A DNA stretch of 38,009 nucleotides from Planctomycetota bacterium. Its GTDB lineage: Bacteria > Planctomycetota > MHYJ01 > WSZJ01. The notes below the pieces were generated by a model. The model did no database searches. It was not told where the DNA came from and was given only the letters and a program-made list of their open reading frames with translations. The position numbers were made by a program, and so were the translations under genes. Shown in pieces: positions 2,297 through 32,280 of this stretch (the stretch's first letter is position 1; every line of letters begins with the position of its first letter). The DNA lies in NCBI GenBank assembly GCA_021413805.1, contig JAIOPR010000329.1:1-38009 (forward strand), in the 5' to 3' direction.

Positions 2297-2722
2297 ATGC
2301 CCGAAGGAAAGTCGTTCACGCGGTTTTTCCCGATCATCGCGAGGGTCCTCATGGGGCTCCTCTTCACGATGACCGGCCTCAACGGTTTCCTGAACTTCCT
2401 GCCGCAGCCAAAGGAGGCGATGCCGGAGTTCGCGGTGGCGCTTGCGAAGACCGGGTACATGTTCCCGATGATCATGGGGACGCAACTCCTGTGCGGGCTC
2501 CTGTTCCTGTCGGGGCGCTTCGTCCCGCTGGCACTGGCGCTTCTTGCCCCGGTCGTCGTGAACATTGTCGCGTTTCACCTTTTCCTGGCGCAGAACGGCA
2601 TCGCGATGGCGATGGTCGTGCTGCTCCTGGAGCTGTACCTCGCGGGGGCCTACCGCGGGGCGTTCAAACCGATGTTGGCCATGAACGCGGCCCCCGGCAC
2701 CAACTCAGGAGGATCCCGATGA
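2297..2722 (+). CDS. DoxX-family membrane protein
   Basis: This 141-residue protein has four hydrophobic segments, starting with FFPIIARVLMGLLFTMTGLNG and ending with MVVLLLELYLAGAY. This is the four-helix layout of DoxX/DoxD-like proteins, which act in the cytoplasmic membrane and are often linked to quinone or thiol redox chemistry. It starts at ATG 2297 after an ACGGAGG ribosome site, and its stop overlaps the next start as ATGA (2719-2722). The position between two double SRPBCC genes suggests a shared pathway, but no substrate can be named. Confidence 0.8.
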   Translation: MPEGKSFTRFFPIIARVLMGLLFTMTGLNGFLNFLPQPKEAMPEFAVALAKTGYMFPMIMGTQLLCGLLFLSGRFVPLALALLAPVVVNIVAFHLFLAQNGIAMAMVVLLLELYLAGAYRGAFKPMLAMNAAPGTNSGGSR

Positions 2723-3618
2723 GCGCGAAATCCGCAGCTCTTCCGAAAGTCGTCTTCACCCGTCTCTTTGACGCGCCGCGCGCCACGGTCTGGCGCGCGT
2801 GGACCGACGCGAAGCACCTCGCTAAATGGTGGGGGCCGATCGGGTGGACGGCGCCGGTTTGCCGGCTCGACGCGCGGGTCGGCGGCCGGATCCATGTCGT
2901 CATGCGCGGCCCGGACGGGGAAGAGCACCCGATGGAAGGCACGGTCACGGTCCTGGACGCGCCGCGCCGATTCGCTTTCGTCAGCAGCGTCCCGGACAAG
3001 GCCGGAGCGACGATGTTCGAGGTGGAGAACAGCGTTCTGTTCGCAGCGCGACGGAGGAAGACTTTGGTCACGCTGACCGCCCGCGTCACCAGGATCACGC
3101 CCGTCGCGGCGCCTTACATCGCCGGGATGGAAGCCGGCTGGTGCCAGTCGCTCGAGAAACTCGACTCGACGCTTTCCGGCTCGGCGAAGCGCGAGATCGT
3201 CAGCGTCCGCTGCCTCGAAGCCTCGCCGGCGCAGGTGTACCGCGCCTGGACCACTTCGAAAATCATCACCCGCTGGTGGGGGCCGAAGGGTTTCACGAAC
3301 ACCATCTCCCGGTTCGAGCCGCGTGCCGGCGGCCGTTGGAACCTCGTCATGCACGGCCCCGACGGCAAGGACTTCCCCAACGCCTGGCGTTTCCTCGAAC
3401 TCGAGCGCCCGCGCCGCATCGTCCTTGAGCATCCGTCGAAGGGGCACCACTTCCGGATCCTCGCGACCTTCTCCGGCATGGGCCCGCGCACCATCCTGAT
3501 CTTCCGCCAGGTTTTCGGCGAGGGCACGGCGATGAACCCGAAATTCCGGGCATTCCTTCAACAGGCAAACGACCAGATGTTGGACCGGATGGAGACGGAA
3601 CTCGCCCGGATTTTGTAA
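2719..3618 (+). CDS. Second double SRPBCC (AHSA1-like) protein
   Basis: This 299-residue protein has two SRPBCC domains, at about 8-150 and 155-298. Landmarks are FTRLFDAPRATVWRAWT and WWGPIGW in the first and VYRAWTTSKIITRWWGPKGF and MHGPDGKDFPNAW in the second. The second domain resembles the first domain of the protein at 1305 (WWGP.GF.NT, MHGPDG.D.PN), so the pair probably arose by duplication. The AGGAGG at 2707-2712 supports the ATG at 2719, which overlaps the DoxX stop by 4 nt. The two domains are too divergent from each other to be a recent internal repeat. Confidence 0.9.
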   Translation: MSAKSAALPKVVFTRLFDAPRATVWRAWTDAKHLAKWWGPIGWTAPVCRLDARVGGRIHVVMRGPDGEEHPMEGTVTVLDAPRRFAFVSSVPDKAGATMFEVENSVLFAARRRKTLVTLTARVTRITPVAAPYIAGMEAGWCQSLEKLDSTLSGSAKREIVSVRCLEASPAQVYRAWTTSKIITRWWGPKGFTNTISRFEPRAGGRWNLVMHGPDGKDFPNAWRFLELERPRRIVLEHPSKGHHFRILATFSGMGPRTILIFRQVFGEGTAMNPKFRAFLQQANDQMLDRMETELARIL

Positions 3619-7959: not shown

Positions 7960-9939
7960 GTGCCCCCCGCCCCGCGCTCCGGCCCCTCCGCCGCCTGGCT
8001 CTCCGTCGGCGTCGGCGCGGCCGTCCTCGCGGTCGTGCTGGCCTACGCGTGGCACGTGGAGCAGGAAAATGCCGCGGCGCGGGCGAAGGCGCGGGACATC
8101 GTGGTCAACGACCGGCCGCCGATTCACTACGGGACGGGCGGGGACGAAGACGCCCTGCCCGCGCGCCTGCCGCTTCCGCCCCGGACGGCTGCGGCCGAAT
8201 TCGATTCGGAGCGCCGCGCGGCGGAGACGCTCGCCGACCAGGGGGAATTTGCTGCGGCGCTCGATGCGGTGAATCTGCTCGCCTCGCGGTTGCCGAAGCG
8301 GGCGCCGGAACTCGATGGGCTGCGCACGGAGATAGATGCGCTGGTGGATGCGGCGTGCGAAGAGGCTGAGGCGCGGGCGAAGAAAGATCCCGTGAAGGGC
8401 CTGGACGCGCTGGACGAACTGGCGGGGCGCGTGCCAGCGGCGGCGGGGGCGAAACTCGGCGTGCTGCGCGGGCAGCTCTCCGCGAACGCTTCGCGCGAAG
8501 CGGCGAAAGCGCGGCTCCTGCAGGCGGACATGCTGGAGAAAGACGGGAAGTTCGACGAAGCGGTGGTGGCGCTTCTCGACGCGGCGCACGGGCTGCTCGG
8601 GGACGCGAAGGAGCGGGCACTGATCCGGGCGGCGCGGCTGCTTCAGCGGGCGCGGTACGAGGGCGTGGTGACGCCGGCGCGGCTGGCGGCACTGGACCTG
8701 GTGAAGCTGGACGCGGTCGAGCGCGCCGTCGAGCGGGCGCTCGCCGCGGCGGACGACAAGGCGTTCAATGACGCACTGCGTCAATTGCAGGCGCTTCCCG
8801 AATCGGACCCGGAGCTGGTCGGCGCGGTGATCCTGCGCGGCGGCACGCCCGTGGACGCGCCGACGGGGGAGCGGGTGTACGAGCACAGGCTGGCGGGCGG
8901 CGAGACGCGGCGGTACGCGGTTTCGGTCCCCGACGAAGGGCTGCCGACGCGCCCGCGGCCGCTTCTCCTCCTGCTCGAGCCCGGCGCCTCTTCACCCGAG
9001 AGTGCCCGCGGCGTCGCGCGGGGGTGGCGAAGCGCGCTGGGGGGCGAGGCGATCGTGGCGGTCGGCGTTCCGGACGAAGCGGCGGGGTGGGGGCCGAACC
9101 GGCGCGGGGAGGACCAGGTGCCGGCGATCCTGGCGGATCTGCGGAAGCGGCATCTTTTCGATCCGGACCGGGTCGTCGTGGCGGGGAAGTCGGCGGGGGC
9201 GCACGGCGTGTGGTTCCAGGCGATGCGGTACGGCGACCGGTACGCCGCGTTCGTGGGCGTCGCGGGGACGCCGTATTCGCCGATGTACGGGAGCCACTGG
9301 CTTGAATGGATCGGGAATCTCACGCTCGCGCCGGCGCGCGCGCTTGCGGGGGCGAAGGACGAGGTTTTCCCGATCGCCGGGCCGCGGCGCTTCGCGGAAA
9401 TCGCCAAGGAGCGCGCGTGCCGCGTCGAGCTCGTCGAAGTTCCGGACCGCGGGCACGAACTCGCGATGGAGGACCTCCGCAAGGCACTGGCGTGGGGGCT
9501 GGAGCAGAAGCGGGACTCGTTCCCAAAGGAGCTCGACTGGTCCACCGACAATGTCGCGAACGGCCGCTGCGCGTGGATCGAGATCGCGGGGATCTCGAAA
9601 GACGCAGGCGAAGTCACCGTCAATTTCGTCGATGACGCGGGGAAGACGGTCGAGCGGCGCCGGATCTCAAAGGATTGCGCCCGGGTCCGCGCCGCGGTGC
9701 GCGCCCAGCGGATCGAGATCACGGCCGACCTCGTCTCGAAACTGCGGATCCTCTGGAGCGACCGCTTCATCGACGTGGCGAAATCCGTCACCGTCGTCGT
9801 CAACGGCCGCGAACTCTCGACCGGCGTTCCCGGTGCTTCGGCGGCGTTCGCCGTCGGTGAAGCGCGGCGCAGCGGGCGGCGGGACCGCGTGTTCGTCGGG
9901 GAAACGGTGATCGACGTCCCGGAGCCCGCCCGGAAATGA
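7960..9939 (+). CDS. Membrane-anchored alpha/beta hydrolase with helical N-terminal domain (paralogue 1)
   Basis: This 659-residue protein has an N-terminal membrane anchor at about 12-30 (WLSVGVGAAVLAVVLAYAW). An Ala-rich helical, TPR-like region runs to about 300. An esterase-type alpha/beta hydrolase follows, with nucleophile S411 in GKSAGAHG, D467 in AGAKDEVF and H499 in DRGHE. The last 140 residues look like a beta-rich C-terminal domain. The hydrolase part resembles the PHB-depolymerase/prolyl-oligopeptidase-like esterases; the substrate is unknown. GTG 7960 is the first start after an in-frame stop (7945-7947) and has no clear Shine-Dalgarno. A same-length paralogue lies at 11078, with a thioredoxin-fold gene between them. 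Confidence 0.8.
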   Translation: MPPAPRSGPSAAWLSVGVGAAVLAVVLAYAWHVEQENAAARAKARDIVVNDRPPIHYGTGGDEDALPARLPLPPRTAAAEFDSERRAAETLADQGEFAAALDAVNLLASRLPKRAPELDGLRTEIDALVDAACEEAEARAKKDPVKGLDALDELAGRVPAAAGAKLGVLRGQLSANASREAAKARLLQADMLEKDGKFDEAVVALLDAAHGLLGDAKERALIRAARLLQRARYEGVVTPARLAALDLVKLDAVERAVERALAAADDKAFNDALRQLQALPESDPELVGAVILRGGTPVDAPTGERVYEHRLAGGETRRYAVSVPDEGLPTRPRPLLLLLEPGASSPESARGVARGWRSALGGEAIVAVGVPDEAAGWGPNRRGEDQVPAILADLRKRHLFDPDRVVVAGKSAGAHGVWFQAMRYGDRYAAFVGVAGTPYSPMYGSHWLEWIGNLTLAPARALAGAKDEVFPIAGPRRFAEIAKERACRVELVEVPDRGHELAMEDLRKALAWGLEQKRDSFPKELDWSTDNVANGRCAWIEIAGISKDAGEVTVNFVDDAGKTVERRRISKDCARVRAAVRAQRIEITADLVSKLRILWSDRFIDVAKSVTVVVNGRELSTGVPGASAAFAVGEARRSGRRDRVFVGETVIDVPEPARK

Positions 9940-9941
9940 AA

Positions 9942-9970
9942 CCGGGCCGCCCCTGATCGGGACGGCCCGG
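9942..9970. terminator. Hairpin between convergent genes, likely bidirectional terminator
   Basis: CCGGGCCG (9942-9949) pairs with CGGCCCGG (9963-9970), with further CCC/GGG pairing inside. It lies between the stop of the hydrolase gene (9939) and the stop of the convergent thioredoxin-like gene (9993). It has no strong T-tract. Confidence 0.6.
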
Positions 9971-9992
9971 GTTGCTCACGCCTTTGAGATGG

Positions 9993-10865
9993 CTACTTCC
10001 TGGGGTTGGCCGCCTTATCCGCCGCCAGCACGTCGGCCATTGCCTTGTCCGCGTCCTTCGCAACCGGCTGGCCCTTGAAATCGGTCTGCACAGACTTCAG
10101 GATTTCTTTCGCCTTCGCGAAATCCCCGGCGTCCTTCGCCTTCACCGCGTCCTCGATCCGGCTCTTCGCGCCCTCAACGAGCTTGTCCAGCGCGGCCTGT
10201 GCCTTCTCGACCCACGGTTTGGCCGCGGGATTCTTCGCCATGGCCTTGATGGCGGCCGTGTAACCGTCAACCGCGTCGTGGATCTTCCCGTCCGTCACGG
10301 ACTTCTCGCCGGCGGAGAGTTTTCCGGTGAGGAAGAGGTACTCGTCCTCGCCCAGCCCGACGCCGACGGCCTTCTCGGCCTCCGCCATTTTCTCGATGAG
10401 CTGCTTCGCCGACATCCCGCCCTGGTTCTGCCCGATCTGCTTCCCGGTCACGTCGCACCACACCGTCGCGGGCGTGCCGAACGTGCCCTTGAAGTACCCG
10501 CCGGCCGAAGCCCCCGAGTCGCACGCGACGTGGTCCGCGCACGCGATTCCAGGGACAAGCTTGCACATGTCCTTGCCGTCCACCTTCTCGGTCCCGTGCC
10601 CCGTGTCCCGGTTGCAGTACACGTTCACCCACCGCTTCGACGCCGCGATGAAATCCTTCTGGTTGTACACCGACGCATCCATCCCGGTGCATTTCGGGCA
10701 GTTGTCCTTGTGGAACGTGACATGGATAGGCACGTTCCGCTCCTTCGCCTCCTTGACCGCATCTTCCCAGCTGTGCTGCCAGCGAATGCCGGGCTCCGGC
10801 GGTTTGGCCATGGCGGGAAGCGCCGCGAGCACGGCGGCAGCGAAGGTCAGGGTCAGTCGGCGCAT
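9993..10865 (-). CDS. Secreted thioredoxin-fold protein
   Basis: This is a 290-residue protein with a signal peptide (MRRLTLTFAAAVLAALPAMA, cleavage after residue 20). A thioredoxin fold follows: HVTFHKDNCPKC with the CxxC at C56/C59, and the cis-proline in FGTPATVW. Between them lies an unusual insert with several extra cysteines (NVYCNR, DMCKLVPGIACADHVACDS). A helical Ala/Lys-rich region of about 130 residues, perhaps TPR-like, forms the C-terminus. It is predicted to act on thiols or disulfides in the periplasm. ATG 10865 has GAGGAG upstream and starts the signal peptide; an upstream in-frame ATG at 10928 would bury it. It lies between two paralogous hydrolases on the other strand. Confidence 0.85.
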   Translation of the reverse strand: MRRLTLTFAAAVLAALPAMAKPPEPGIRWQHSWEDAVKEAKERNVPIHVTFHKDNCPKCTGMDASVYNQKDFIAASKRWVNVYCNRDTGHGTEKVDGKDMCKLVPGIACADHVACDSGASAGGYFKGTFGTPATVWCDVTGKQIGQNQGGMSAKQLIEKMAEAEKAVGVGLGEDEYLFLTGKLSAGEKSVTDGKIHDAVDGYTAAIKAMAKNPAAKPWVEKAQAALDKLVEGAKSRIEDAVKAKDAGDFAKAKEILKSVQTDFKGQPVAKDADKAMADVLAADKAANPRK

Positions 10866-11077
10866 CGGGTGGATCTCCTCGTTGAAAGGGAAGTTTGAGT
10901 AATACGATGGAGCGGATTGGTTGCACACGATTGTACGCCCTCGCCCGGGGGGGAATGGAAGCGCAATCGCGTTTCAATCATGACTCCCGGGGACATGATT
11001 TTCCGCGTTCGACGCGGCGTTCCGGCCCGGTTATCATCGATCTCGAAAGCGGTCGGGGGGCCATCGGGAATCCAAGA

Positions 11078-13057
11078 ATGGGGCAGGACCGGACGGTCGT
11101 CGTCGCGGCAGCCACGACCCTCGGCCTCGCGGCCGCAGCGCTCGGGCTGGTGTTCGCGCTTCGCGACCAGCCGCCTCCCGCGACGCCTTCCGTCGCCGTG
11201 GTCGAACTCAGCAGTCCTGAACCGGCCCCGCGGCCCGCGCCTCCCGTGCAACCCGAGAAGCCGGTTGTCAACCCCCTGCGGCCCGATCCGCCGATTTCCC
11301 CGCGCCTCCAGGCCGAGCAGGACCGCGCTTACGCCGCTTCGACCGCGGCCGCGGACACGGCGCTCGCCGAGGGGCGTTTTCGGGATGCGGATTTCGAAAT
11401 ACGCGCGCTTCTGGAATCGCGCCCGGAGAAACAGGCCGAACTCGACAAGAAACTTTCTGAAATCGCCCGGTTGGCGCAGGCGGCATTCGAGGAAGTGCTC
11501 GCATCGGCGCGGCGCGACCCGGACAACGCCCGCACGGCACTCGCATCGATGGCGGCCCGCGCGCCTGAAGAAATTGCCCGGAAGGCGAATGCCGCGCTTC
11601 AGGAAATCGACGACGCCCGGGGCCGTGAAGATGCGGGCAAGAAAGTGGCGGACGCGGAGAAGCTTGCGGCCGGGGGAAAATTGAAGGACGCGGCCGAACT
11701 GCTCGATGCCGTCGCGGCGGCGTTGCCGGAAAACGAGTCGCGCGGGGTGAAGGATCGCGCGGCGCTGTGGCGGCGACTGGCGAATTACGTCGGGGCGATG
11801 GACCCGGCGGAACTTCTCGCGGTGGACGCGGCGACCCTCGACGCGGTCGAGCCGGCCGTGGAGGAATTCCTGGCGACCGGCGATGCGGACAAGCGCAACG
11901 CGATCGTCCAGAAACTTCAGGCGCTTCCCGCCGCCACGCCGGACGTCGTTGCGGCGGTGCTGCTCCGCGGCGGATCGTTCGAAGCGATCTCGCCCGGCGA
12001 CCACGTCGAGAAGTTCGCGCTCCCCGGTGGCGAAACGCGCGACATCGTGATCAGCGTTCCCCAGGGTTACACGCCTGACCACCCGTGGCCCGTTTTCCTG
12101 AATCTCCACGGCACCAACGCGACGCTCGATTTCTGCCAGGGCTACGCGCCGTATTTCCGCCGGGTCGCCAAGGGCCGCTACATCGTCGCGCAGCCCGTCG
12201 CCGAGCGCAGTTCCGGCTGGGGCCCGATGAAAATCGGTGAGCAGCAGGCGCCCGCCGCGCTTCAGTTCCTCCGCTCGAAATTTCCCATCGACCCCGACCG
12301 CGTCTGGCTCGCCGGGCAGTCGATGGGCGCGCACGGCACCTGGCAGCAGGCGATGCGCCACGGCGACCTTTACGCGTGCTACATCCCGCGGTCCGGCCCG
12401 CCGTACAAGGCCGCGTACGGCCTGAACTGGGAAGCCTACCTCGACAATCTGCACCTCGCCCCCGCCTGGTACATCCACGGCGCCCTCGACGCGCTTCTCC
12501 CCGTCGAGACCGCCCGGGAATTTCACAAGATTGCCGAAGCAAAGAAGCTCAACGTCACCTACCTCGAGTTCGCGCACAACGGCCACGAAGGCGCCCCGGA
12601 GGACGAACTCCTCAAGTCGTACGAGTGGGCGATCGACAAGGTCCGCGCCCCGTACCCTAAGAAATTCCAGTGGACCGCCGACCACCTCGACTACGCCCGC
12701 TTTTCCTGGGTCGAGGTCACGCGCTTCAATGCGTCCGGAAAGCTCGACCACGTCAAGTTCAAGGACAACCAGGGCAACATCGTCGAGACCCGGCCGACGC
12801 TGAATGTCCCCGCGCATTTCGACGTCGATGTGAAAGGACAGTCGATCGAGCTGAAGACGAAGGAAATCGAGAAGATCAGGATCTGGTGGAACCCGGCGGT
12901 CGTGGACCTCGCGAAGGAAGTCACGATCAAGGTGAACGGGAAATCGAAGTGGAAAGGCGTGCCCGCGGTGTCGATCAAGGTGATGCTGGACGACGCGGCG
13001 AGGACGGGGCGCCGCGACCTGGTTTTCTACGGCGGCGTGGAAGTGGACGGGCAGTAG
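11078..13057 (+). CDS. Membrane-anchored alpha/beta hydrolase with helical N-terminal domain (paralogue 2)
   Basis: This 659-residue protein is identical in length to the product at 7960. The membrane segment is VVVAAATTLGLAAAALGLVF, followed by a Pro-rich linker (PRPAPPVQPEKP). A helical region leads to an esterase domain with S415 in GQSMGAHG, D471 in HGALDALLP and H503 in NGHEG. The S-D and D-H spacings (56 and 32 residues) equal those of the paralogue. A FLNLHGTNAT oxyanion-type motif is better preserved here than in paralogue 1, so this copy looks more canonical. The ATG at 11078 is preferred because it gives a proper anchor; the frame is open further upstream to 10895. The 212-nt gap to the divergent thioredoxin gene must hold both promoters, but I could not define them. 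Confidence 0.82.
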   Translation: MGQDRTVVVAAATTLGLAAAALGLVFALRDQPPPATPSVAVVELSSPEPAPRPAPPVQPEKPVVNPLRPDPPISPRLQAEQDRAYAASTAAADTALAEGRFRDADFEIRALLESRPEKQAELDKKLSEIARLAQAAFEEVLASARRDPDNARTALASMAARAPEEIARKANAALQEIDDARGREDAGKKVADAEKLAAGGKLKDAAELLDAVAAALPENESRGVKDRAALWRRLANYVGAMDPAELLAVDAATLDAVEPAVEEFLATGDADKRNAIVQKLQALPAATPDVVAAVLLRGGSFEAISPGDHVEKFALPGGETRDIVISVPQGYTPDHPWPVFLNLHGTNATLDFCQGYAPYFRRVAKGRYIVAQPVAERSSGWGPMKIGEQQAPAALQFLRSKFPIDPDRVWLAGQSMGAHGTWQQAMRHGDLYACYIPRSGPPYKAAYGLNWEAYLDNLHLAPAWYIHGALDALLPVETAREFHKIAEAKKLNVTYLEFAHNGHEGAPEDELLKSYEWAIDKVRAPYPKKFQWTADHLDYARFSWVEVTRFNASGKLDHVKFKDNQGNIVETRPTLNVPAHFDVDVKGQSIELKTKEIEKIRIWWNPAVVDLAKEVTIKVNGKSKWKGVPAVSIKVMLDDAARTGRRDLVFYGGVEVDGQ

Positions 13058-21878: not shown

Positions 21879-22262
21879 ATGCCCCGTATTGCAGGCGTTG
21901 ACATTCCCCTCGACAAGCCGGTGTCCATCGGGCTCGGGTACGTCTACGGGCTGGGGGATGCCCTGGCGATGAAGATCCTGAAGGACGTCGGGATCGACCC
22001 GGGGATCCGGACCAAGAACCTCTCCGAGGAGCAGGTCGCGCGCATCAACGCGATCATCGACAAGAACTACGTGGTCGAGGGCGCGCTTCGCCGCCAGATC
22101 GCGCAGAACATCCAGCGCCTGAAAGACATCAACTGCTACCGTGGGCTCCGGCACCGCCGCGGCCTTCCCGTGCGCGGCCAGCGCACGCGCTCGAATGCGC
22201 GGACCCGCAAGGGGCCGCGGAAGACGGTCGCGGGCAAGAAGTCAGTGAAGGGCCTGGGCTAG
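21879..22262 (+). CDS. rpsM: 30S ribosomal protein S13
   Basis: This 127-residue protein in the 30S head contacts P-site tRNA and the 50S subunit. Signatures are [33 protein letters not shown] and the basic tail [30 protein letters not shown]. The start is preceded by AGGAGAAA. A 57-nt gap with a small hairpin follows before rpsK. Confidence 0.98.
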
Positions 22263-22281
22263 TCCAAGACGGAGTGTATTC

Positions 22282-22296
22282 CCCGGGAAACCCGGG
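22282..22296 (+). other. Short hairpin in the rpsM-rpsK gap
   Basis: CCCGGG (22282-22287), loop AAA, CCCGGG (22291-22296), a perfect 6-bp GC stem without a following T-run. It is unlikely to be a full terminator inside this operon; an mRNA-processing or pausing signal is possible. Confidence 0.4.
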
Positions 22297-22319
22297 TCAA
22301 CTGAGGAACGGAAACAAGC

Positions 22320-22748
22320 ATGGCCGAGAAAGAAAAAGAGAAGGTCGAGAAGAAGGACGAGAAGCCGGCGGCGGCTCCGAAGCGCCGCAAGGTGAAACGT
22401 GTCGTGCAGAAGGCGATCGCGCACGTCTACGCGTCCTTCAACAACACGATCATCACGATCTCCGATCCCAAGGGCGAGACGCTCTGCTGGGCCTCGGCCG
22501 GCACGATCGGCTACAAAGGCTCCCGCAAGTCCACCCCGTTTGCCGCCCAGAAAGCCGCCGAGTCCGCGGCCGAGAAGGCGACGAAGTTCGGGGTGAAAGA
22601 GGTCGACGTGCGTGTCAAGGGCCCGGGCAGCGGACGCGAATCCGCCATCCGCGCGCTTCAGGCTTCCGGCCTCGAGGTCAAGGCGATCGAGGACTGCACG
22701 CCGCTTCCCCATAACGGTTGTCGCGCGCGCAAAAAGCGCCGCGTCTAG
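22320..22748 (+). CDS. rpsK: 30S ribosomal protein S11 with charged N-terminus
   Basis: This 142-residue protein of the 30S platform lies near the E site. The core matches S11: [68 protein letters not shown] and the end [15 protein letters not shown]. The first about 25 residues ([20 protein letters not shown]) are a Lys/Glu-rich extension compared with the usual about 129 residues. It is 12 nt upstream of rpsD. Confidence 0.98.
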
Positions 22749-22760
22749 GCGAGGAGAACC

Positions 22761-23378
22761 ATGGCCAGGATTCGAAACAGGAAAGTAGCGATCAGCCGCC
22801 GTGAGGGTGTGAACATGCACCTGAAGGGCGGGCGGTACGAGAACATGGACTTCGGTGGCGAGAAGCCGCCCGGGGTGCATGGGGACCGCCGGTCGCGTGC
22901 GACGGATTACGGGATTCACTTGCGCGAGAAGCAGAAATGCAAGCGCTGGTACGGGGTGCTGGAGCGCCAGTTCCGGCGTTACTTCGACCAGGCGCTGGCG
23001 ATGCCCGGGAACACGGGGCAGAACCTGCTGGTCGTGCTGGAGAGCCGGCTGGACAACGTGGTGTACCGTCTCGGGTTTGCGCCGACGCGGAACATGGCCC
23101 GGCAGATGATCGTTCACCGGCATGTGATGGTGGACGGGAAGCGGGTATCGGTGCCGTCGTGGCCGGTGAAGGCGGGGATGAAGATCTCTTTCTCGCCGCG
23201 GGAGGGTTCGCAGAAGCTGGCGAAGGCGGGGCTGGATTCGCCGAAGACGGACTTCATGCCTTCCTGGCTGATGCGGGAAGACAACCAGCTGGGTGGAGTG
23301 GTTGTAGCGCGGCCGACGCGTGAAGAAGTGCCGATTGCCATCAAAGAACAGCTGATCGTCGAGTTCTGCTCCAAATAG
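22761..23378 (+). CDS. rpsD: 30S ribosomal protein S4 (cysteine-free N-terminus)
   Basis: This 205-residue protein nucleates 16S 5'-domain assembly. The GEKPPGVHGDRRSRATDYGIHLREKQKCKRWYGVLERQFRRYF region and the S4 RNA-binding domain (LESRLDNVVYRLGFAPTRNMARQMIVHRHVMVDGKRV) are clear. The N-terminal zinc motif found in some S4 proteins is absent, so this one is the C- type, in contrast to S14, L24, L31 and L36 here. The last residues are EFCSK. It is 9 nt upstream of rpoA. Confidence 0.98.
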   Translation: MARIRNRKVAISRREGVNMHLKGGRYENMDFGGEKPPGVHGDRRSRATDYGIHLREKQKCKRWYGVLERQFRRYFDQALAMPGNTGQNLLVVLESRLDNVVYRLGFAPTRNMARQMIVHRHVMVDGKRVSVPSWPVKAGMKISFSPREGSQKLAKAGLDSPKTDFMPSWLMREDNQLGGVVVARPTREEVPIAIKEQLIVEFCSK

Positions 23379-23387
23379 GAGATATCC

Positions 23388-24416
23388 ATGCGCGTACGCT
23401 GGAAAGATTTCGAACTGCCGACGAGGGTGGTGGTGGAAGAGAAGACGCTCACCAGCACTTTCGGGACTTTCGTTGCCGAGCCGTTTGAGCGGGGGTACGG
23501 GATCACGATCGGCAACAGCCTGCGCCGCGTGCTTCTGTCCTCGATCGAGGGGGCTGCGGTCACGAGCGTGAAGATCAAGGGTGTGTCGCACGAATTCTCG
23601 ACGATCAAGGGTGTGGTCGAGGACGTGACGGACATCATCCTTTCGATCAAGAAGCTTGTCGTGAAGCTTGAGACGGAGGGGACCCGGACGCTCCGGATCG
23701 AGAAGAAGGAAAAGGGCGAGGTCCGTGCGGCGGACATCATTGCGGACTCGCAGGTGACGGTCGTGAACCCGGATCTCCACATCGCGACGCTGACGGAAGA
23801 CGTCGAGTTCGTGGTGGAGATGGAGGTCCGCAAGGGGCGGAGCTACGTGACGAGCGACGAGAACGAGAAAGAGGACCGGGAGGTCGGCACGATCTCCGTG
23901 GACTCGATCTTCTCGCCGGTGCGCCGCGTGAAATACCGCGTTGAAAACACGCGCGTCGGCAAGCTGACGAACTACGACAAGCTCGTGCTGGACATCTGGA
24001 CGAACGGCACGGTGTCGCCGGAGCTGGCGCTCGTCGAGGCCTCCAAGATCCTCCGCAAGCACCTGAACCCGTTCGTGCAGTACTTCGAGCTCGGCCGCGA
24101 GTTGCAGATGAACGAGAAGAAGGAAGAGGAAGCCCGGAAGCGCGAGAAGTACATGGAGGAGCTGAAGCAGAAGCTCCAGATGAGCGTTTCGGAGCTCGAC
24201 CTCTCGGTTCGCGCGTCGAACTGCCTGACGAGCGAGAACATCCAGACGATCGGGGAGCTCGTGGTGCGTTCGGAGGCGGAACTCCTGAAGGTGCGCAACT
24301 TCGGCAAGACCTCGCTCAAGGAGGTCAAGAAGAAGCTCTCCGACATGGGTCTCTCTCTCGGAATGGAACTCGAGACCATCCTCGGAACCACGGGAGTGGA
24401 CAAAGATGCGACATAG
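23388..24416 (+). CDS. rpoA: RNA polymerase subunit alpha
   Basis: This 342-residue protein is of normal length. The N-terminal dimerisation domain has FVAEPFERGYGITIGNSLRRVLLSSIEGAAVTSVKI and carries the assembly interface. The linker is Glu/Lys-rich (EKKEEEARKREKYMEELKQ). The C-terminal domain (about 262-330) starts SELDLSVRASNCL and contains LLKVRNFGKTSLKEVKKKL, the region that contacts UP elements and activators. ATG 23388 follows AGGAGATATCC. It overlaps rplQ by 11 nt. Confidence 0.98.
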   Translation: MRVRWKDFELPTRVVVEEKTLTSTFGTFVAEPFERGYGITIGNSLRRVLLSSIEGAAVTSVKIKGVSHEFSTIKGVVEDVTDIILSIKKLVVKLETEGTRTLRIEKKEKGEVRAADIIADSQVTVVNPDLHIATLTEDVEFVVEMEVRKGRSYVTSDENEKEDREVGTISVDSIFSPVRRVKYRVENTRVGKLTNYDKLVLDIWTNGTVSPELALVEASKILRKHLNPFVQYFELGRELQMNEKKEEEARKREKYMEELKQKLQMSVSELDLSVRASNCLTSENIQTIGELVVRSEAELLKVRNFGKTSLKEVKKKLSDMGLSLGMELETILGTTGVDKDAT

Positions 24417-24933
24417 GTATGTCGGAAGGAAGCTCGGCCGCGGGCGTCCGCATCGCGAGGCGATGCGCCGCCAGATCGTGAGCGACCTCTTCCTCAACGA
24501 ACGGATCATCACGACCGTCGAGCGTGCGAAGGAGTTCCGTATCTTCGCCGACCGGATCATCACGATCGGGAAGAAGTACCAGGCGGCGAAGGACCAGGCG
24601 GTGAAGATCCACTACCTGCGCCAGGCGCACCGTCACCTGCAGGATGAGGCGATGGCGAAGAAGGTCTGCCTGGAGATCGCCCCGAGGTTCACGGAGCGTC
24701 CGGGCGGGTACACGCGGGTATTGAAGCTCGGCGGATCGCGCTGGAGCGACAATGCGAAGTACGCGATGCACCGGCTGGGCGACAACGGGGAGCGGGCGAT
24801 TCTCGAGCTGGTGGTGAAGAGCGACGCGCCTGAAGAGGCGCCGGAGCCGGCCGCGAAGGCGGCGAAGAAGCCCAAGGCGAGCGAATCGACGACGAAGGCA
24901 AAGAAGGGCAAGGAGTCGGCGGGCGGGACGTAG
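24406..24933 (+). CDS. rplQ: 50S ribosomal protein L17 with Ala/Lys tail
   Basis: This 175-residue L17 is about 50 residues longer than the usual about 125. The core is MRHRYVGRKLGRGRPHREAMRR, FLNERIITTVERAKEFR and GGYTRVLKLGGSRWSDNAKYA, followed by ILELV. The tail after about 137 is PEEAPEPAAKAAKKPKASESTTKAKKGKE. The start overlaps the rpoA end by 11 nt. It is the last gene of the cluster, with a terminator 24 nt downstream. Confidence 0.98.
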   Translation: MRHRYVGRKLGRGRPHREAMRRQIVSDLFLNERIITTVERAKEFRIFADRIITIGKKYQAAKDQAVKIHYLRQAHRHLQDEAMAKKVCLEIAPRFTERPGGYTRVLKLGGSRWSDNAKYAMHRLGDNGERAILELVVKSDAPEEAPEPAAKAAKKPKASESTTKAKKGKESAGGT

Positions 24934-24956
24934 CGTTGACGGAACGGTGAAACCAG

Positions 24957-24986
24957 AGCCCCGGGCAGAGTTGCCCGGGGCTTTTT
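24957..24986 (+). terminator. Rho-independent terminator of the ribosomal operon
   Basis: A perfect 11-bp stem, AGCCCCGGGCA (24957-24967) with TGCCCGGGGCT (24972-24982), and a GAGT tetraloop, followed by T-run 24982-24986. It lies 24 nt after rplQ and is the clearest terminator in the window. Confidence 0.95.
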
Positions 24987-25011
24987 CATGGGCTGGGCGA
25001 GGGGAGGACCG

Positions 25012-25515
25012 GTGAACGCCGCGTGCACCCTGGTCGGGATCGTTTCCGACTCCCACGACAACGGGGAGGCGGTCCTGGAGGCGCTGGCGGGCCTTCAGGC
25101 GCGCGGCGTCACGGACCTCATCCACTGCGGCGACGTCACCACGGCCGCGACGCTGGAACTTTTCCGCGGCTTCCGTTTCCGCGTCTGCCTCGGCAACAAC
25201 GACTCCGCGAGGGAGCTTTCCGCCGCGGCCGAGCGCCTGGGCGGCAGCTACGCCGCCTGCCTGGACATCCGGATCGGCGGGAAGCGGTTTTTCGTGGGGC
25301 ACGGGGACAGGGAAGGGCCGCTGAACGCGGCGGCGTCCTGCGGGGATTTCCACTATGTGCTATACGGGCACACGCACCGGAAAGACGACCGGCGGGTGGG
25401 AAAGGTGCGGGTGATCAATCCCGGGGCGCTGTACCGGGCACCGGCGTATTCGTACGCCGTCCTGGACACGGCGACGGACGCGCTGGAGTTCGTGGCGGTG
25501 GGGAAGCCCGCCTAA
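25012..25515 (+). CDS. YfcE/MJ0936-type metallophosphoesterase
   Basis: This 167-residue calcineurin-like phosphodiesterase has the metal-site motifs in order: SDSHDN (11-16), HCGDV, LGNND, GHGD and YGHTH. The family hydrolyses phosphodiesters in vitro with two metal ions; the physiological substrate is unknown. GTG 25012 has GGGGAGG 5 nt upstream; an ATG at 24988 lies right after the T-run of the rplQ terminator and is less likely. Its stop overlaps the mtnA stop by 4 nt, with no terminator between the convergent genes. Confidence 0.93.
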   Translation: MNAACTLVGIVSDSHDNGEAVLEALAGLQARGVTDLIHCGDVTTAATLELFRGFRFRVCLGNNDSARELSAAAERLGGSYAACLDIRIGGKRFFVGHGDREGPLNAAASCGDFHYVLYGHTHRKDDRRVGKVRVINPGALYRAPAYSYAVLDTATDALEFVAVGKPA

Positions 25516-26552
25516 GGGCGCCCGGCGGCCTTCGCCGATCTTCCGCCCGTGATCCGCTGGATCGAGGCGCCATACGGCGCGCGCACAACCCCCGCTTCCG
25601 TGATGATCGCCGTCACGAATTTCGCCGGCGTCACGTCGAACGCGGGGTTCCACGCGCCGATCCCGCGCGCGGCGGTGCGGCGGCCGGCCGAGGTCAGGAC
25701 TTCCTTCGCGTCCCGCTGCTCGACATGGATGCCGCGGCCCGTCGGCGTCGCCACGTCGAACGTCGAGAGCGGCGCGGCCACGAAAAACGGGACGCCGTGC
25801 TCCTTCGCCGCCAGCGCCAGCGCGTACGTCCCCACCTTGTTCGCCACGTCCCCGTTCGCCGCAATCCGGTCCGCGCCCACGACGACGCTCCGCACTCTTC
25901 CCGAAGCGATCAGCCCTGCCGCCGCGCCGTCCACGAGCAGCGTCACGTCGACCCCGGCGCGCGAAAGTTCCCACGCCGTCAGCCGTGCGCCCTGCAGAAG
26001 CGGACGCGTCTCCGTCGCGAAGACCCACATCTTCTTCCGTCGCGACAGCGCTTCGTAGATCCCCGCCAGCGCCGTCCCCGAGCCGCCCGTCGCCAGCGAC
26101 CCCGCGTTGCAGTGCGTCAGCACCGGCTCTTTCAGCAGGAAATACGCGTGCTTCCCGATCCGCTGGCACGCCGAACGGTCCTCGGCGTGGATGAGAAGCG
26201 CTTCGCTCAACAGGCGCCGGCGGTCGAGGGTCTGGAGGGCGAGCATGCGTCTGACGGCCCAGGCGAGGTTGACGGCGGTGGGCCGCGCGGCGATGAGGCG
26301 GGCGCCGGCCCGGGCGAACTGTTTCAGGGTGCGGCAGCCGCGCGCGGCGAGGACCATGCCGTAAGCCGCGGCGATGCCGATCAGCGGCGCGCCCCGCACC
26401 TGCAGCCTGCGGATCGCATCAAAAACAATGCGCGGGTGCCGGCAGCTTCGCCACCGCACCCGCGCAGGAAGTTCAGTCTGGTCCAGCACCTTCAGGACGC
26501 CGCCCGGCCCGCCAATCCAGCGCACGCCCGGCGGCGGCAGCTTGACGGGCAT
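25512..26552 (-). CDS. mtnA: S-methyl-5-thioribose-1-phosphate isomerase
   Basis: This 346-residue enzyme converts methylthioribose-1-phosphate to methylthioribulose-1-phosphate in methionine salvage. Motifs are RGAPLIGIAAAYG (53-65), catalytic C148 in THCNAGSLATGGSGTAL, and D228 in VVVGADRIAANGDVANKVGTY. The family is related to eIF2B subunits, but the CNAG..TGG and full-length N-domain support MtnA. It starts 2 nt after rpsP, so it belongs to the ffh-rpsP transcription unit, an uncommon place: rimM or trmD usually follows rpsP. No other methionine-salvage gene is present in the window. Confidence 0.93.
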   Translation of the reverse strand: MPVKLPPPGVRWIGGPGGVLKVLDQTELPARVRWRSCRHPRIVFDAIRRLQVRGAPLIGIAAAYGMVLAARGCRTLKQFARAGARLIAARPTAVNLAWAVRRMLALQTLDRRRLLSEALLIHAEDRSACQRIGKHAYFLLKEPVLTHCNAGSLATGGSGTALAGIYEALSRRKKMWVFATETRPLLQGARLTAWELSRAGVDVTLLVDGAAAGLIASGRVRSVVVGADRIAANGDVANKVGTYALALAAKEHGVPFFVAAPLSTFDVATPTGRGIHVEQRDAKEVLTSAGRRTAARGIGAWNPAFDVTPAKFVTAIITEAGVVRAPYGASIQRITGGRSAKAAGRP

Positions 26553-26878: not shown

Positions 26879-26943
26879 GCGGTCTCCTTCGAGTCGGAAG
26901 TGCGCCTGGCCCCATGGACCGGGCGGATGGATTTGGGGGGAGA

Positions 26944-26949
26944 ATTCTA
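26944..26949 (-). promoter_or_regulatory. Possible -10 box for rpsP
   Basis: TAGAAT on the minus strand (26949-26944) lies about 66 nt upstream of the rpsP ATG in the ffh-rpsP gap. The hexamer 17 nt before it (TGGCAC) is a poor -35, so this is tentative. The same TAGAAT occurs at other promoters here. Confidence 0.35.
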
Positions 26950-27012
26950 GCGTTGAGGGCGGCGCGGTGCCATGAATTTCCTGCGGCCGGCCCGGGGGAA
27001 GCGCGCCGCTCC

Positions 27013-28344
27013 CTATTTCCGGTGTTTCCCCATCATCTTCGAAAGCCTGCCACCGCTGAAGCCCTTCATCATCTTGCGAAGGTCCTTGAACTGCTTGAGC
27101 AGGTTGTTGATTTCCGGGAGGGTGCGGCCCGCGCCCTGGGCGATGCGTTTGCGGCGGGAGCCGTCGATGATCTCGGGGTGCTTGCGCTCGTCGAAGGTCA
27201 TGGACTGGATGATGGCTTTCATGCGCTTGAACTCGCCCTGCATGTCGTCTTCCTTGCCGCCCATCATCTGGCCCATGCCGGGGATCATCCCGATGATCTG
27301 GGAGATGGGGCCCATCTTTTCCATCTGGCCGATCTGCTCGAGGAAGTCCTGGAGGTCGATTTCGTTCTTGTGGAGCTTGGTGGCGAAGCGGCGTGCGGTG
27401 TCGGCGTCGACGTTCTCCTGGGCTTTCTCGACGAGGGAGATGACGTCGCCCATGCCGAGGATGCGCTGGGCCATGCGGTCGGGGTAGAACTCGGAGAGGT
27501 CGTCGATTTTTTCGCCGACGCCGACGAACTTGATCGGCTTGCCGGTGATGAACTTGATCGAGAGGGCGGCGCCGCCGCGGGTGTCGCCGTCGAGTTTCGT
27601 GAGGACGACGCCGGTCAGCGGGAGCTTTTCGTTGAACTGCTTCGCCGAGTTCACGGCGTCCTGGCCGGTCATCGAGTCCACGACGAGCAGGATCTGGTCG
27701 GGCTTCGTGACGTCGGCGATTTCCTTCACCTCGGCCATCAGCGCTTCATCGATGTGCAGGCGGCCGGCCGTGTCGAGGATCACCAGGTCGCGCCCCAGCT
27801 TGATCGCTTCCTCGATCCCGCGCTTGCAGATCATCGGCGGGCGGCCCGAGGCCTCGGCGTGGACGGGACACTCGATCGAAGCGCCGAGCGTCTTCAACTG
27901 CTCGATGGCGGCGGGGCGCTGCGTGTCGGCGGCGACGAGGAGGGGCTTGGCGCCCTTTTTCATGAAGAGCTTCGCCAGCTTGGCGCAGGTCGTCGTTTTC
28001 CCGGAGCCCTGGAGGCCGGCCATCATGATGACCGTCGGGCGGTTCGGGTTCTTCGCGATCGCCGCGTCCGCCGGGCCCATCAGCGCGACCATCTCGTCGT
28101 AGATGATCTTCACGATCTGCTGCGAGGGTTGCACCGACTTGATCACGTCCTCGCCGACCGCCTTCGCCGAGACGTTCTTCAGGAATTCCTTCACGACGAT
28201 CAGGTTGACGTCGGCCTCGAGAAGGGCCACGCGGACTTCGCGCATGCCTTCCTGGATGTTGGCCTCCGTGATGCGCCCCTTCCCGGCGAGGCGGCGCAGG
28301 ACGCCAGTCAGCTTGTCAGTCAGGCTCTCGAACATGCGGGGCAT
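27013..28344 (-). CDS. ffh: Signal recognition particle protein Ffh (SRP54)
   Basis: This 443-residue GTPase binds 4.5S RNA and signal peptides and targets nascent membrane proteins to the translocon. The N domain begins MFESLTDKLTGVLRRLAGKG. The G domain has GLQGSGKTTTCAKLA, DTAGRLHIDEALM and TKLDGDTRGGAALS. The Met-rich M domain includes IIGMIPGMGQMMGG and GSRRKRIAQGAG, then KQFKDLRKMMK. ATG 28344 or the internal ATG 28335 (MFESL) may be used; neither has a clear ribosome site. Only 36 nt separate it from the anti-sigma stop. Confidence 0.97.
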   Translation of the reverse strand: MPRMFESLTDKLTGVLRRLAGKGRITEANIQEGMREVRVALLEADVNLIVVKEFLKNVSAKAVGEDVIKSVQPSQQIVKIIYDEMVALMGPADAAIAKNPNRPTVIMMAGLQGSGKTTTCAKLAKLFMKKGAKPLLVAADTQRPAAIEQLKTLGASIECPVHAEASGRPPMICKRGIEEAIKLGRDLVILDTAGRLHIDEALMAEVKEIADVTKPDQILLVVDSMTGQDAVNSAKQFNEKLPLTGVVLTKLDGDTRGGAALSIKFITGKPIKFVGVGEKIDDLSEFYPDRMAQRILGMGDVISLVEKAQENVDADTARRFATKLHKNEIDLQDFLEQIGQMEKMGPISQIIGMIPGMGQMMGGKEDDMQGEFKRMKAIIQSMTFDERKHPEIIDGSRRKRIAQGAGRTLPEINNLLKQFKDLRKMMKGFSGGRLSKMMGKHRK

Positions 28345-28380
28345 TGTGCGGCAAGCGGCGGAAGCGGGAAAGCGGTTTTG

Positions 28381-28953
28381 TTACTTCCGGATGTCCACCA
28401 CGTCGGGGCGTTCGCTCGCCGCGACCCACAATTTCCGGGCGATCGGGCAGTACGGGACCATGTCGAACACCGCTTTGTCGGCGTGGATCGCCTTGCAGCT
28501 GATGCCGTCGTATTCGACCGAGACTTGTTTCTTGTAGACCTGCTCCAGGGCGAGGGCGAGGAGGAAGAGGTCCCCGTCGTCCGCCTTCGAGGGCTTTTCG
28601 ATTTCCTGCACCGTCGCGACGATCTTTTCCCGGTCCACATAGATCTTCACGGTCTCGGGCGCCGCCGCCGCTGTTTTCCCCGTGTCCCGGCCGACCGCGA
28701 TTCCTCCCGCAAAGGCCAGCGCCACCGCCGCGGCGGCCGCAACGATCCACGCCGGCCCCCGGGCTCTCCCCGGGAACGCCGCTTCGACCACGCGATCCCG
28801 CAGACCTGGCGGTACTTCAGGCACGGCGCCGCGAAGCGCCCGCAGATGGGCGAACTCCTCCCGGCACCGCGGGCACGATTCGACGTGCTCCCACCCCGCG
28901 ACCGAAATCGCCTGCCCCGAATCCACCGCGCCCCTCAGTTCGTCACACTTCAT
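28381..28953 (-). CDS. Zinc anti-sigma factor (ZAS/zf-HC2), membrane-anchored
   Basis: This is a 190-residue protein. The cytoplasmic N-terminus has the anti-sigma zinc motif H23-x3-C27-x2-C30 (WEHVESCPRC) plus C3, which forms a zinc-binding sigma-binding domain. One membrane helix (PAWIVAAAAAVALAFAGGIAVG) lies at about 68-88. The outer domain (about 100-190) has no family I recognise and includes two cysteines. ATG 28953 is preceded by GAGGG and lies inside the sigma gene (11-nt overlap), so sigma and anti-sigma are translationally coupled. It probably holds the ECF sigma until a signal arrives. Confidence 0.87.
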   Translation of the reverse strand: MKCDELRGAVDSGQAISVAGWEHVESCPRCREEFAHLRALRGAVPEVPPGLRDRVVEAAFPGRARGPAWIVAAAAAVALAFAGGIAVGRDTGKTAAAAPETVKIYVDREKIVATVQEIEKPSKADDGDLFLLALALEQVYKKQVSVEYDGISCKAIHADKAVFDMVPYCPIARKLWVAASERPDVVDIRK

Positions 28954-29470
28954 GGCCAGCCCTCGCAAAATGCTCCCGCAGCATCCGCCTTCCGCGCGCC
29001 ACGCGCGAACCTACCGTCCCCGTTTCACAGCCCATCACTTCCGACGCCTCCTGGTACGACATCCCCATCGCGTCGCACAGCCACAGCGCTTCACGGAACT
29101 CGTCCGGCACCTGCCGAAGCGCCGTCTCGACGGCCTCGCGCGCGTCCGCGTCCGGGCCCGCCGGCGCCGCACGCGAGAGGATGGCGTCTTCCGCCCCGAC
29201 TTCCTTGCGGACCTTGCGCCTCCGGATCAGGTCGATCGATGCGTTCCGCGCGATCGTCAGGAGCCAGGAGAGGAAAGGCCTTGAAGGATCGTATTTCCGT
29301 CCGCCGAGCAGACCCACGAACGTCTCCTGCACCACGTCCTCCGCGGCCGACGGGTCACGCACGATCCTCAGGGCGTACCCGAAGACCCCGCCGGAGTGGC
29401 GGTCGTAGAGCGTCGTGAAGGCGGCTCGGTCGCCTTTCAACGCGCGCGTCAGCAGGGTGGCGTCGGTCAT
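28943..29470 (-). CDS. ECF-type RNA polymerase sigma factor
   Basis: This 175-residue group-4 sigma factor has region 2 (AFTTLYDRHSGGVFGYALRIVRDPSAAEDVVQETFVGLL, then FLSWLLTIARNASIDLIRRRK). It has a short linker and region 4 (LRQVPDEFREALWLCDAMGMSYQEASEVMGCETGTVGSRVARGRRML). Regions 1.1, 1.2 and 3 are absent, as expected. Its promoter targets are unknown. ATG 29470 is my choice; ATG 29482 upstream sits at the base of a 10-bp hairpin. Neither has a Shine-Dalgarno sequence. Its stop overlaps the anti-sigma start by 11 nt. Confidence 0.92.
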   Translation of the reverse strand: MTDATLLTRALKGDRAAFTTLYDRHSGGVFGYALRIVRDPSAAEDVVQETFVGLLGGRKYDPSRPFLSWLLTIARNASIDLIRRRKVRKEVGAEDAILSRAAPAGPDADAREAVETALRQVPDEFREALWLCDAMGMSYQEASEVMGCETGTVGSRVARGRRMLREHFARAGHEV

Positions 29471-31423: not shown

Positions 31424-32253
31424 CGTCGCGCCGTGACGATCCGATCGAGGCCCTGGAAATCCTTGAGGACGCGGATGCTATCAAAGTCGCGTGTGCGGTC
31501 CAGCGAATCCGCGAACTTCGCGGTCTGGGCCGGCGCCATCTCGACGGCGAGGAGGCCGCCGGGCCAGAGGAGATGGGAAGCGTCCTCGGGGATACGGTCG
31601 AGCAGGGTGGTGCCCTCGGGTCCCGAGACGAGCGCCTGCCGGGGTTCCCAGTCGCGGACTTCGGCCTGAAGCGCGGGGAATTCCGCCTCGGTGACGTAGG
31701 GGGGATTGGCGGTGATGACGTGGAAGGGCATGAGGAAGGGGCGGAGGAGGTCGGCGCGGACGAAGTTCACCTCGAGCTTGAGTTTCTTTGCGTTCTCGCG
31801 GGCGAGGAGCAGCGCCTCCTGGCTGACGTCGGAACCGAGGACGCTGAGTTCTTTCCAGCCTTTCTTGGCGGCGAGGGCGATCGCGCCGCTTCCCGTGCAG
31901 ACATCGAGCATCCGGGCGGGCTTGTCGTTCCTGTGGGCGAGCACGAGGTCCACGATCTGCTCGGTCTCGGGGCGCGGGATGAGGGCGCGCTTGTCGATCT
32001 GGAGCCGGAGGCCGGCGAAGGAGACGGAACCGGTCACGTACTGCAGAGGCTCGCGTTTTTCGCGGCGGGCGACCATTTCGTCGAACTTGCGCTTGCGGTA
32101 GGGAGGAAACTCGTCGGTGCCCTTCGAGATGAGATCGAGGGCCGACCAGGTGAGGGCGGCGGCGGCCATGGAGTTGGCGTCACGGTCGGCGTCGGGAACG
32201 CCGGCGGCCGCGAGGCGCGCGGTGGCCTTGTCGATGGCGTCCTGGACTTTCAT
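31408..32253 (-). CDS. prmC: Release factor glutamine methyltransferase PrmC (HemK)
   Basis: This 281-residue SAM-dependent enzyme methylates the Gln of the GGQ motif in release factors. The N-terminal helical domain ends with REPLQYVTGSVSFAGL, then RALIPRPETEQIVDL. The SAM site is LDVCTGSGAIALAAK (116-130), and the catalytic NPPY is at 183-186. It lies 27 nt after prfA, whose product is its substrate, and overlaps murA by 16 nt. Confidence 0.96.
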   Translation of the reverse strand: MKVQDAIDKATARLAAAGVPDADRDANSMAAAALTWSALDLISKGTDEFPPYRKRKFDEMVARREKREPLQYVTGSVSFAGLRLQIDKRALIPRPETEQIVDLVLAHRNDKPARMLDVCTGSGAIALAAKKGWKELSVLGSDVSQEALLLARENAKKLKLEVNFVRADLLRPFLMPFHVITANPPYVTEAEFPALQAEVRDWEPRQALVSGPEGTTLLDRIPEDASHLLWPGGLLAVEMAPAQTAKFADSLDRTRDFDSIRVLKDFQGLDRIVTARRWKNS

Positions 32254-32280
32254 GGGGTCGCGGCGCGGTTTCCGATGTTT

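Follow-up and report, generated by a model that had tools for sequence, protein, structure and literature searches.

A probable selenocysteine-to-cysteine replacement in an exported thioredoxin-like protein of Planctomycetota, encoded between two duplicated esterase genes

Contig G000:C321 of a Planctomycetota bacterium, which was analysed over its entire length of 38,009 bases and is referred to below as the window, belongs to a genome (G000) of 4.57 Mb in 377 contigs that is 82% complete. It harbors three neighboring genes: hydA and hydB, which encode alpha/beta-hydrolases, and trx, which lies between them on the opposite strand and encodes a thioredoxin-fold protein (Table 1). An earlier note on this DNA had read the arrangement as a duplication around an envelope protein, perhaps an assembly or degradation island. 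Comparison with relatives, among them a genus set of five genomes (G000, the genome of the window, and G001 to G004), points elsewhere: it is quite probable, as judged from sequence comparison, that trx of the window is a recent selenocysteine (Sec, U) to cysteine replacement in a planctomycete family that resembles AGR and ERp18 and mostly carries Sec, and that the two esterases are tandem duplicates which adjoin it by accident.

Table 1. Features of the hydA-trx-hydB region, in positions of the window
Feature	Positions	Strand	Basis
hydA: alpha/beta-hydrolase (esterase) with membrane anchor, paralogue of hydB, 659 aa; oxyanion His replaced (LLEPG)	7960..9939	+	ORF, BLASTP, alignment, tree
GC-rich hairpin, 12 pairs, terminator-like on the minus strand, between convergent hydA and trx	9942..9970	-	strongest stem listed
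trx: secreted Thioredoxin_7 / AGR-ERp18-like domain with TPR-like helical C-terminus, 290 aa	9993..10865	-	Pfam, model, structure comparison
Site of the SECIS-like (selenocysteine insertion sequence) hairpin of Sec relatives (alignment columns 18-37); fold lost in window copy	10664..10683	-	RNA folding
TGC codon, Cys56, first Cys of CPKC; the column is an in-frame TGA (Sec) in 18/24 homologues	10698..10700	-	alignment
Divergent intergenic region trx/hydB, 212 bp	10866..11077	.	G000/G001/G002 alignment: little conservation
hydB: membrane-anchored alpha/beta-hydrolase (esterase), LHG, GQSMG, D and H motifs intact	11078..13057	+	Pfam, tree, model

The trx gene is read on the minus strand from an ATG at 10865; its product begins MRRLTLTFAAAVLAALPAMA, contains 7 Cys in 290 residues, and exceeds the gathering score of Pfam Thioredoxin_7 (PF13899; 30.5 vs 27 bits), which agrees with the secreted, Cys-rich thioredoxin-fold protein of the earlier note. 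PF13899 is matched at E <= 0.01 in 19/19 members of the trx family, and a model built from 19 sequences (predicted local distance difference test score, pLDDT, 90.4) comprises a thioredoxin domain, which ends near residue 167, followed by five helices that extend to residue 286. C56, C59, C101, C109, H90, H112 and P132 are invariant in all 19 members, if Sec is counted as Cys; the conserved proline, P132, precedes the last strands and the active site is of the CxxC type, so that sequence and model both conform to a thioredoxin fold.

The nearest known fold is that of ERp18/TXNDC12 (1sen; Z 13.5, root-mean-square deviation 2.3, 116 residues aligned), with AGR2 close by (Z 12.9; AGR2, AGR3 and TXNDC12 span Z 12.7-13.5), and sequence matches to AGR2 and p19/TXNDC12 are found at about 1e-6. 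These proteins are likewise exported and carry a CxxC-type site. The trx family differs from them in displaying UxxC in most close relatives, in its additional invariant Cys101/Cys109 and His90/His112, and in a C-terminal half (residues 173-286) that is helical and TPR-like. Structure alignments to known chains span the thioredoxin domain and stop short of this half; a few family members match TPR models weakly. The same fold is found in the C-terminal domain of DsbD (DsbD-gamma, 1uc7; Foldseek E 2.7e-5) and in DsbH (2ju5; E 3.1e-4), but trx is not fused to a membrane transporter as DsbD is, and the NCBIfam DsbH model is matched weakly by 2/19 members. Among predicted selenoproteins, Trx7/PDZ (NF041199), TsoB (NF045694) and VPGUxxT (NF041382/NF041383) show weak similarity in the thioredoxin part and have Sec in a thioredoxin-like site. 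At E <= 0.001, the protein of the window and the 18 relatives aligned with it show similarity to six NCBIfam models, yet the window protein scores far under the cut-off of each, including NF041199 (23.5 vs 300), NF045694 (22.1 vs 805) and NF041382 (22.5 vs 350). Furthermore, the family table of a 2026 review (PMC13188914) gives Trx7/PDZ the motif CxxU, the reverse of the UxxC of the trx family. That table also includes UxxC thioredoxin-like selenoproteins, one of which is a thiol:disulfide interchange protein under PF13098; this Pfam model is matched at E <= 0.01 by 14/19 trx members.

These features suggest that the trx family consists of exported, presumably periplasmic, thiol-disulfide oxidoreductases acting as reductase or isomerase. 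In such an enzyme Sec or Cys56 would attack the substrate and Cys59 would resolve the intermediate, while electrons might pass through the invariant Cys101/Cys109 pair, and the TPR-like tail is a candidate site for client binding.

A search of relatives for trx yielded matches in 18/40 genomes, and 24 of the first 25 matches were aligned, one truncated copy being left out. A single in-frame TGA stands at the Cys56 column in 18 of the 24, within the motif H-K/Q-D-x-U-x-x-C (one variant reads GKDHU). These 18 include the orthologues from G001 and G002 that occupy the corresponding position between the same esterases, and 13 of the 16 aligned copies from the genus carry Sec. The six copies lacking a TGA are that of the window (CPKC), three from genome G011 (CSGC, CPAC, NPGC), and G000C180 and G001C147, which have neither Cys nor Sec at either site. 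The latter two (loci L056, G000:C180, and L064, G001:C147) group together (100/100), with ADG and EAG where the active-site residues were lost. Two Sec copies occur in tandem both in G002:C281 and in G003:C162, and a second, truncated family copy lies beside a Sec copy at a contig end of the window genome (L055/L133, G000:C211:11081-11596).

The distribution of the UGA form was followed with a TGA-containing IUPAC pattern, run on one genome per species over 84,980 species. Its 18 matches lie on 16 contigs from 11 metagenome-assembled genomes (MAGs), all of them titled Planctomycetota, Planctomycetia or Brocadiia, and every match falls in a long frame of the trx family; no other phylum among the 84,980 genomes gave a match, and well under one match would be expected by chance if even base composition is assumed. 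A pattern derived from the trx alignment, with a codon for Cys at the place of the TGA, found no related loci. Within Planctomycetota, 84 of 392 genomes surveyed hold the family at E <= 1e-15; the TGA is present in 22 of the best 26 rows (E <= 1.4e-64), and many weaker rows have no stop. In 20 loci from outside the genus, 27/27 TGAs fall in U-x-x-C; these loci were picked for having a TGA, 5 of them having been seen before, and they therefore test the position of the TGA and not its frequency.

The 13 Sec genes of the genus share a stem of 8 pairs closed by a 4-base loop that begins 14 bases past the UGA (columns 18-25 with 30-37), to which RNAalifold assigns -9.02 kcal/mol. In this hairpin 95.2% of cells are paired, with 9 two-sided cells, as compared to 20-50% paired in slid controls, and 0 of 500 shuffles match it in pairing, two-sided cells or covariation. 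Over 22 regions (the 13 from the genus, eight distant Sec genes and the window) the same helix retains 79.5% of cells paired, which 0 of 500 shuffles reach. GC content at third codon positions (GC3) is 0.67 in the stem codons of 21 Sec genes, against 0.90 over their remaining codons, a noisy figure with six codons each; such a difference would be expected if codon choice were limited by RNA folding. The machinery for Sec insertion is encoded as well: SelA and SelD exceed their cut-offs in 5/5 genus genomes and SelB in 4/5, with a complete SelB in the genome of the window, tRNA-Sec is strong and over cut-off in G001 to G004, and the best SelD match of each of the five genomes itself contains one TGA. 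Genes and RNA features of this kind lead us to infer that Sec is really inserted at the UGA of the trx relatives. With regard to SelD, two genes over cut-off lie on one contig of G000 (C243:10126-11052 and 24809-25732); only one of them has an in-frame TGA, and the two are perhaps a second Sec/Cys pair.

In a tree of 27 members (IQ-TREE), the copy of the window groups with G000C285, G002C10, G001C117 and G004C12, all of which are Sec forms (99.1/98). Fitch parsimony requires 4 changes over the tree and, with midpoint rooting, locates a Sec-to-Cys change on the window branch. At 10698-10700 the window copy has TGC in the place of the UGA, and the hairpin codons are changed too, which makes a sequencing error at the TGC unlikely; the site of the hairpin folds otherwise, the SECIS-like structure is lost, and GC3 there is 0.83, as against 0.90 in the rest of the gene. 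The copy at this locus would have exchanged Sec for Cys (UGA to TGC) and shed its hairpin; Sec paralogues, SelA, SelB and SelD are still present in the same genome.

Several observations weigh against this proposal. For the hairpin, neither the pairs changed on both sides (2 vs 1.9) nor the count of pair types exceeds the shuffles in the 13 genus genes, RNAalifold finds no common structure over the 22 regions, and distant members fold otherwise in this region. G003 has no SelB over the cut-off in an 85% complete genome, despite its Sec genes, and no tRNA-Sec was found in the 82% complete assembly of G000, where the sole match over the gathering threshold is a tRNA-Cys according to ARAGORN. The placement of the window copy inside its clade is weakly supported (15.8/47). 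Finally, G000C180 and G001C147 may represent a non-redox branch, in which case some members of the family would not be redox enzymes.

Turning to the flanking genes, hydA and hydB products share 38% identity over 549 residues (BLASTP, E 2e-110), a likeness far above chance. Their triads, S411/D467/H499 and S415/D471/H503, fall in aligned columns, with spacings of 56 and 32 residues in both, so that the paralogy and the identical spacing noticed at the outset are confirmed. The same applies to the architecture: a hydrophobic segment can be seen at the N-terminus of each protein, and the hydB model (six-row alignment, mean pLDDT 76.3) contains an N-terminal helix at 6-29 and a helical region at 75-297, then the alpha/beta domain, and at 529-657 a C-terminal beta region. 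The exactly equal length, on which the earlier note had also remarked, holds for the chosen starts (GTG at 7960 for hydA, ATG at 11078 for hydB; 659 residues each) but is a coincidence, since it depends on the start codon, hydB having seven possible starts that give 720 to 619 residues, and since the orthologues differ (661 and 656 residues for hydA; 662, 495 and 645 for hydB). Equal length was consequently rejected as a sign of common architecture; the N-terminal parts align with gaps on both sides.

The hydB protein exceeds the cut-off of Pfam Esterase (PF00756; 23.2 vs 22 bits), keeps LHG, G-x-S-x-G, Asp and His in 5/5 orthologues, and looks catalytically complete on the basis of these motifs; a point against this is that its model is of moderate confidence around the active site. 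The hydA protein remains under the Pfam cut-offs (best match PF00326, 18.5 vs 22.6 bits), though it is homologous to hydB by BLASTP. It keeps Ser and His in 4/4 orthologues and Asp in 3/4 (Glu in G001), but the oxyanion His is replaced in all four (EPG, QPG, EPG, TPG); the two active sites are therefore not equivalent, hydA lacking the HG His that hydB retains. Orthologue ratios of nonsynonymous to synonymous substitution (dN/dS, NG86) of 0.25 and 0.27 for hydA and 0.30 and 0.19 for hydB indicate that both are constrained, the range for all three genes, trx included, being 0.19-0.30; the ratio between the paralogues, 0.64 at dS 1.1, is saturated and was not used. With its altered oxyanion site, hydA under purifying constraint could be either a changed esterase or a helper.

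The hydrolase domain of hydB and its triad are those of CE1-like and EstA-like esterases, such as the C-terminal domain of LC-Est1 (3wyd; E 1.6e-15), feruloyl esterases, and a thermostable Thermotoga esterase, 3doh (Foldseek E 2.1e-9). Residues of about 304-523 of the model align with many esterases at Z 15.3-16.9; the hydrolase domain takes all the matches in the PDB comparison, and none is informative on the beta or helical region. Both window proteins differ from CE1-like esterases by their N-terminal membrane anchor, by a helical region of about 230 residues and by the C-terminal beta region, common to planctomycete paralogues, and hydA also by its oxyanion motif. Genome G000 yields 11 matches at E up to 10, and besides the pair, those on C154, C335 and C84 reach at least residue 644 at E 4e-14 or better, so that hydA and hydB belong to a larger family in this genome. 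In the G001 orthologue of hydB (L091:2516-4000; 495 residues from the first ATG), a signal-peptide-like start replaces the anchor and the first helical part, so that the mode of export may have changed. In another homologue (L020, genome G027), the triad Ser and His are replaced (GFAEG, RGRR); inactive members thus seem to occur in the esterase family. There is nothing unusual about the two hydrolases as such, which are tandem duplicates of a planctomycete esterase that is extracytoplasmic and membrane-anchored.

In a tree that combines 9 hydA/hydB proteins with 24 further homologues, hydA (0.993) and hydB (0.998) form monophyletic groups that are sisters (1.000), with G003 deepest in each. 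The order hydA, trx on the opposite strand, hydB is found in 3/5 genus genomes (G000, G001 and G002), where it is kept at 62-69% protein identity; in G003, hydA and hydB overlap by the 4 bases GTGA with no trx between them, and the G004 contig begins inside hydB, so that its locus was not scorable. Tree and overlap together indicate that the duplication predates the divergence of the genus and that the pair was once a coupled operon. The duplication proposed in the earlier note is thus borne out, but not its placement around trx. In the history that we prefer, trx would have been inserted into an ancestral two-gene hydA-hydB operon, and its adjacency to the esterases is most likely the outcome of such an insertion rather than a functional module.

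The alternative that trx already lay between hydA and hydB at the time of the duplication and was later lost in G003 is unlikely, but it has to be reckoned with: there are four scorable loci, and with G003 deepest in both esterase subtrees gain and loss are equally parsimonious. The decision in favor of insertion comes from the exact GTGA overlap of G003, which is easier to retain than to make by deletion.

Readings that give the arrangement a function fare less well. It is quite unlikely that the data describe, in combination, an undescribed, phylum-wide planctomycete family of exported Sec-x-x-Cys thioredoxin/TPR selenoproteins, a selenium-dependent isozyme pair formed by the C285 Sec copy (64% identical) and the Cys copy of the window, and the recruitment of trx beside hydA in three genomes, with Cys133 and Cys573 making hydA its client. 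A functional envelope island, in which trx would serve both hydrolases, for instance by keeping the hydA disulfide right, and the duplication took place around trx, is doubtful to a still greater degree. Both the order kept in three genomes at the identities given and the low dN/dS ratios of all three genes are compatible with an island, as is the occurrence of Cys133 and Cys573 in 3/3 hydA proteins with an adjoining trx and not in the G003 protein that has none; this pattern, however, is confounded with phylogeny at n = 4. Against the island stand the G003 pair without trx and the convergent orientation of hydA and trx, with a terminator-like hairpin between them; such hairpin sites are statistically weak in this region (3 found vs 4.6 expected from shuffles). 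In addition, no hydA/hydB homologue was found near 9 other trx loci of the genus or in 20/20 loci outside it, in the 5-11 kb fetched, and comparison of neighborhoods for the order hydrolase-thioredoxin-hydrolase found the homologues mostly without the thioredoxin, so that the assembly or degradation island of the earlier note is not supported. A conserved regulatory element in the trx-hydB intergenic region was considered and rejected, the three-sequence alignment showing little conservation.

That Cys is ancestral at the locus, its relatives having gained Sec, is very unlikely. According to a 2026 review (PMC13188914) and a 2006 survey (PMC1794560), replacement runs mainly from Cys to Sec, and Sec-to-Cys replacement in bacteria is uncommon and largely confined to FdhA and SelD. 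Cys forms do exist in the wider family, in two G011 copies and possibly among the many survey rows without a stop. Nevertheless, the predominance of Sec in the genus, the nesting of the window copy among Sec forms and the parsimony result place Sec before Cys, and independent gains of Sec would require the same hairpin every time. It is barely credible that the in-frame TGAs reflect sequencing errors or pseudogenes, or that some amino acid other than Sec is inserted at UGA. The named relatives are all MAGs and their Sec residues are predicted from genes, but 18/18 and 27/27 TGAs from independent assemblies occupy one active-site column, and the frames are open downstream. In addition, the hairpin covaries, genes for SelA, SelB, SelD and tRNA-Sec are present, and in every genus genome the best SelD gene has a TGA of its own.

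If trx of the window did exchange Sec for Cys, a decayed SECIS next to retained Sec paralogues and Sec genes, with Sec orthologues in congeners, would offer a clean natural experiment on Sec loss. Standard annotation stops at or skips genes with UGA, and members of a family such as trx can therefore easily be truncated or overlooked in planctomycete genomes; with Cys in place of Sec, the copy of the window is a complete gene that serves as a key to the family. The existence of selenoproteins in planctomycetes is already known (PMC4807772), but the portions consulted of PMC13188914, PMC9312934, PMC4807772 and PMC1794560 make no mention of the trx family, and neither PF13899 nor 'Planctomycet' appears in the main text of PMC13188914 as consulted; the supplementary candidates of PMC4807772 (planctomycetes P1, P2) could include a member.

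A Pfam scan of 20 ORFs neighboring Sec trx genes revealed no common partner outside orthologous positions; the matches comprise M3 peptidase, AAA, amidohydrolase, ABC, M24, trypsin-like, WD40 and other domains, five ORFs having no match. A LOG/lysine-decarboxylase-like gene lies beside three Sec trx loci (L090, L095, L100), and in L136, L137 and L138 (G002, G004 and G003) a Sec trx adjoins such a gene in conserved order. VOC- and GNAT-like flanking genes and a downstream ribosomal-protein region are common to the loci of relatives. Elsewhere in the window, long ORFs that match no Pfam model at 1e-4 are putative genes (22242-24563 on the minus strand, 26914-29418 and 31573-33345 on the plus strand), and adjoining proteins at 1305-2270 and 2491-3618 contain two AHSA1 stretches each, pointing to another local duplication.

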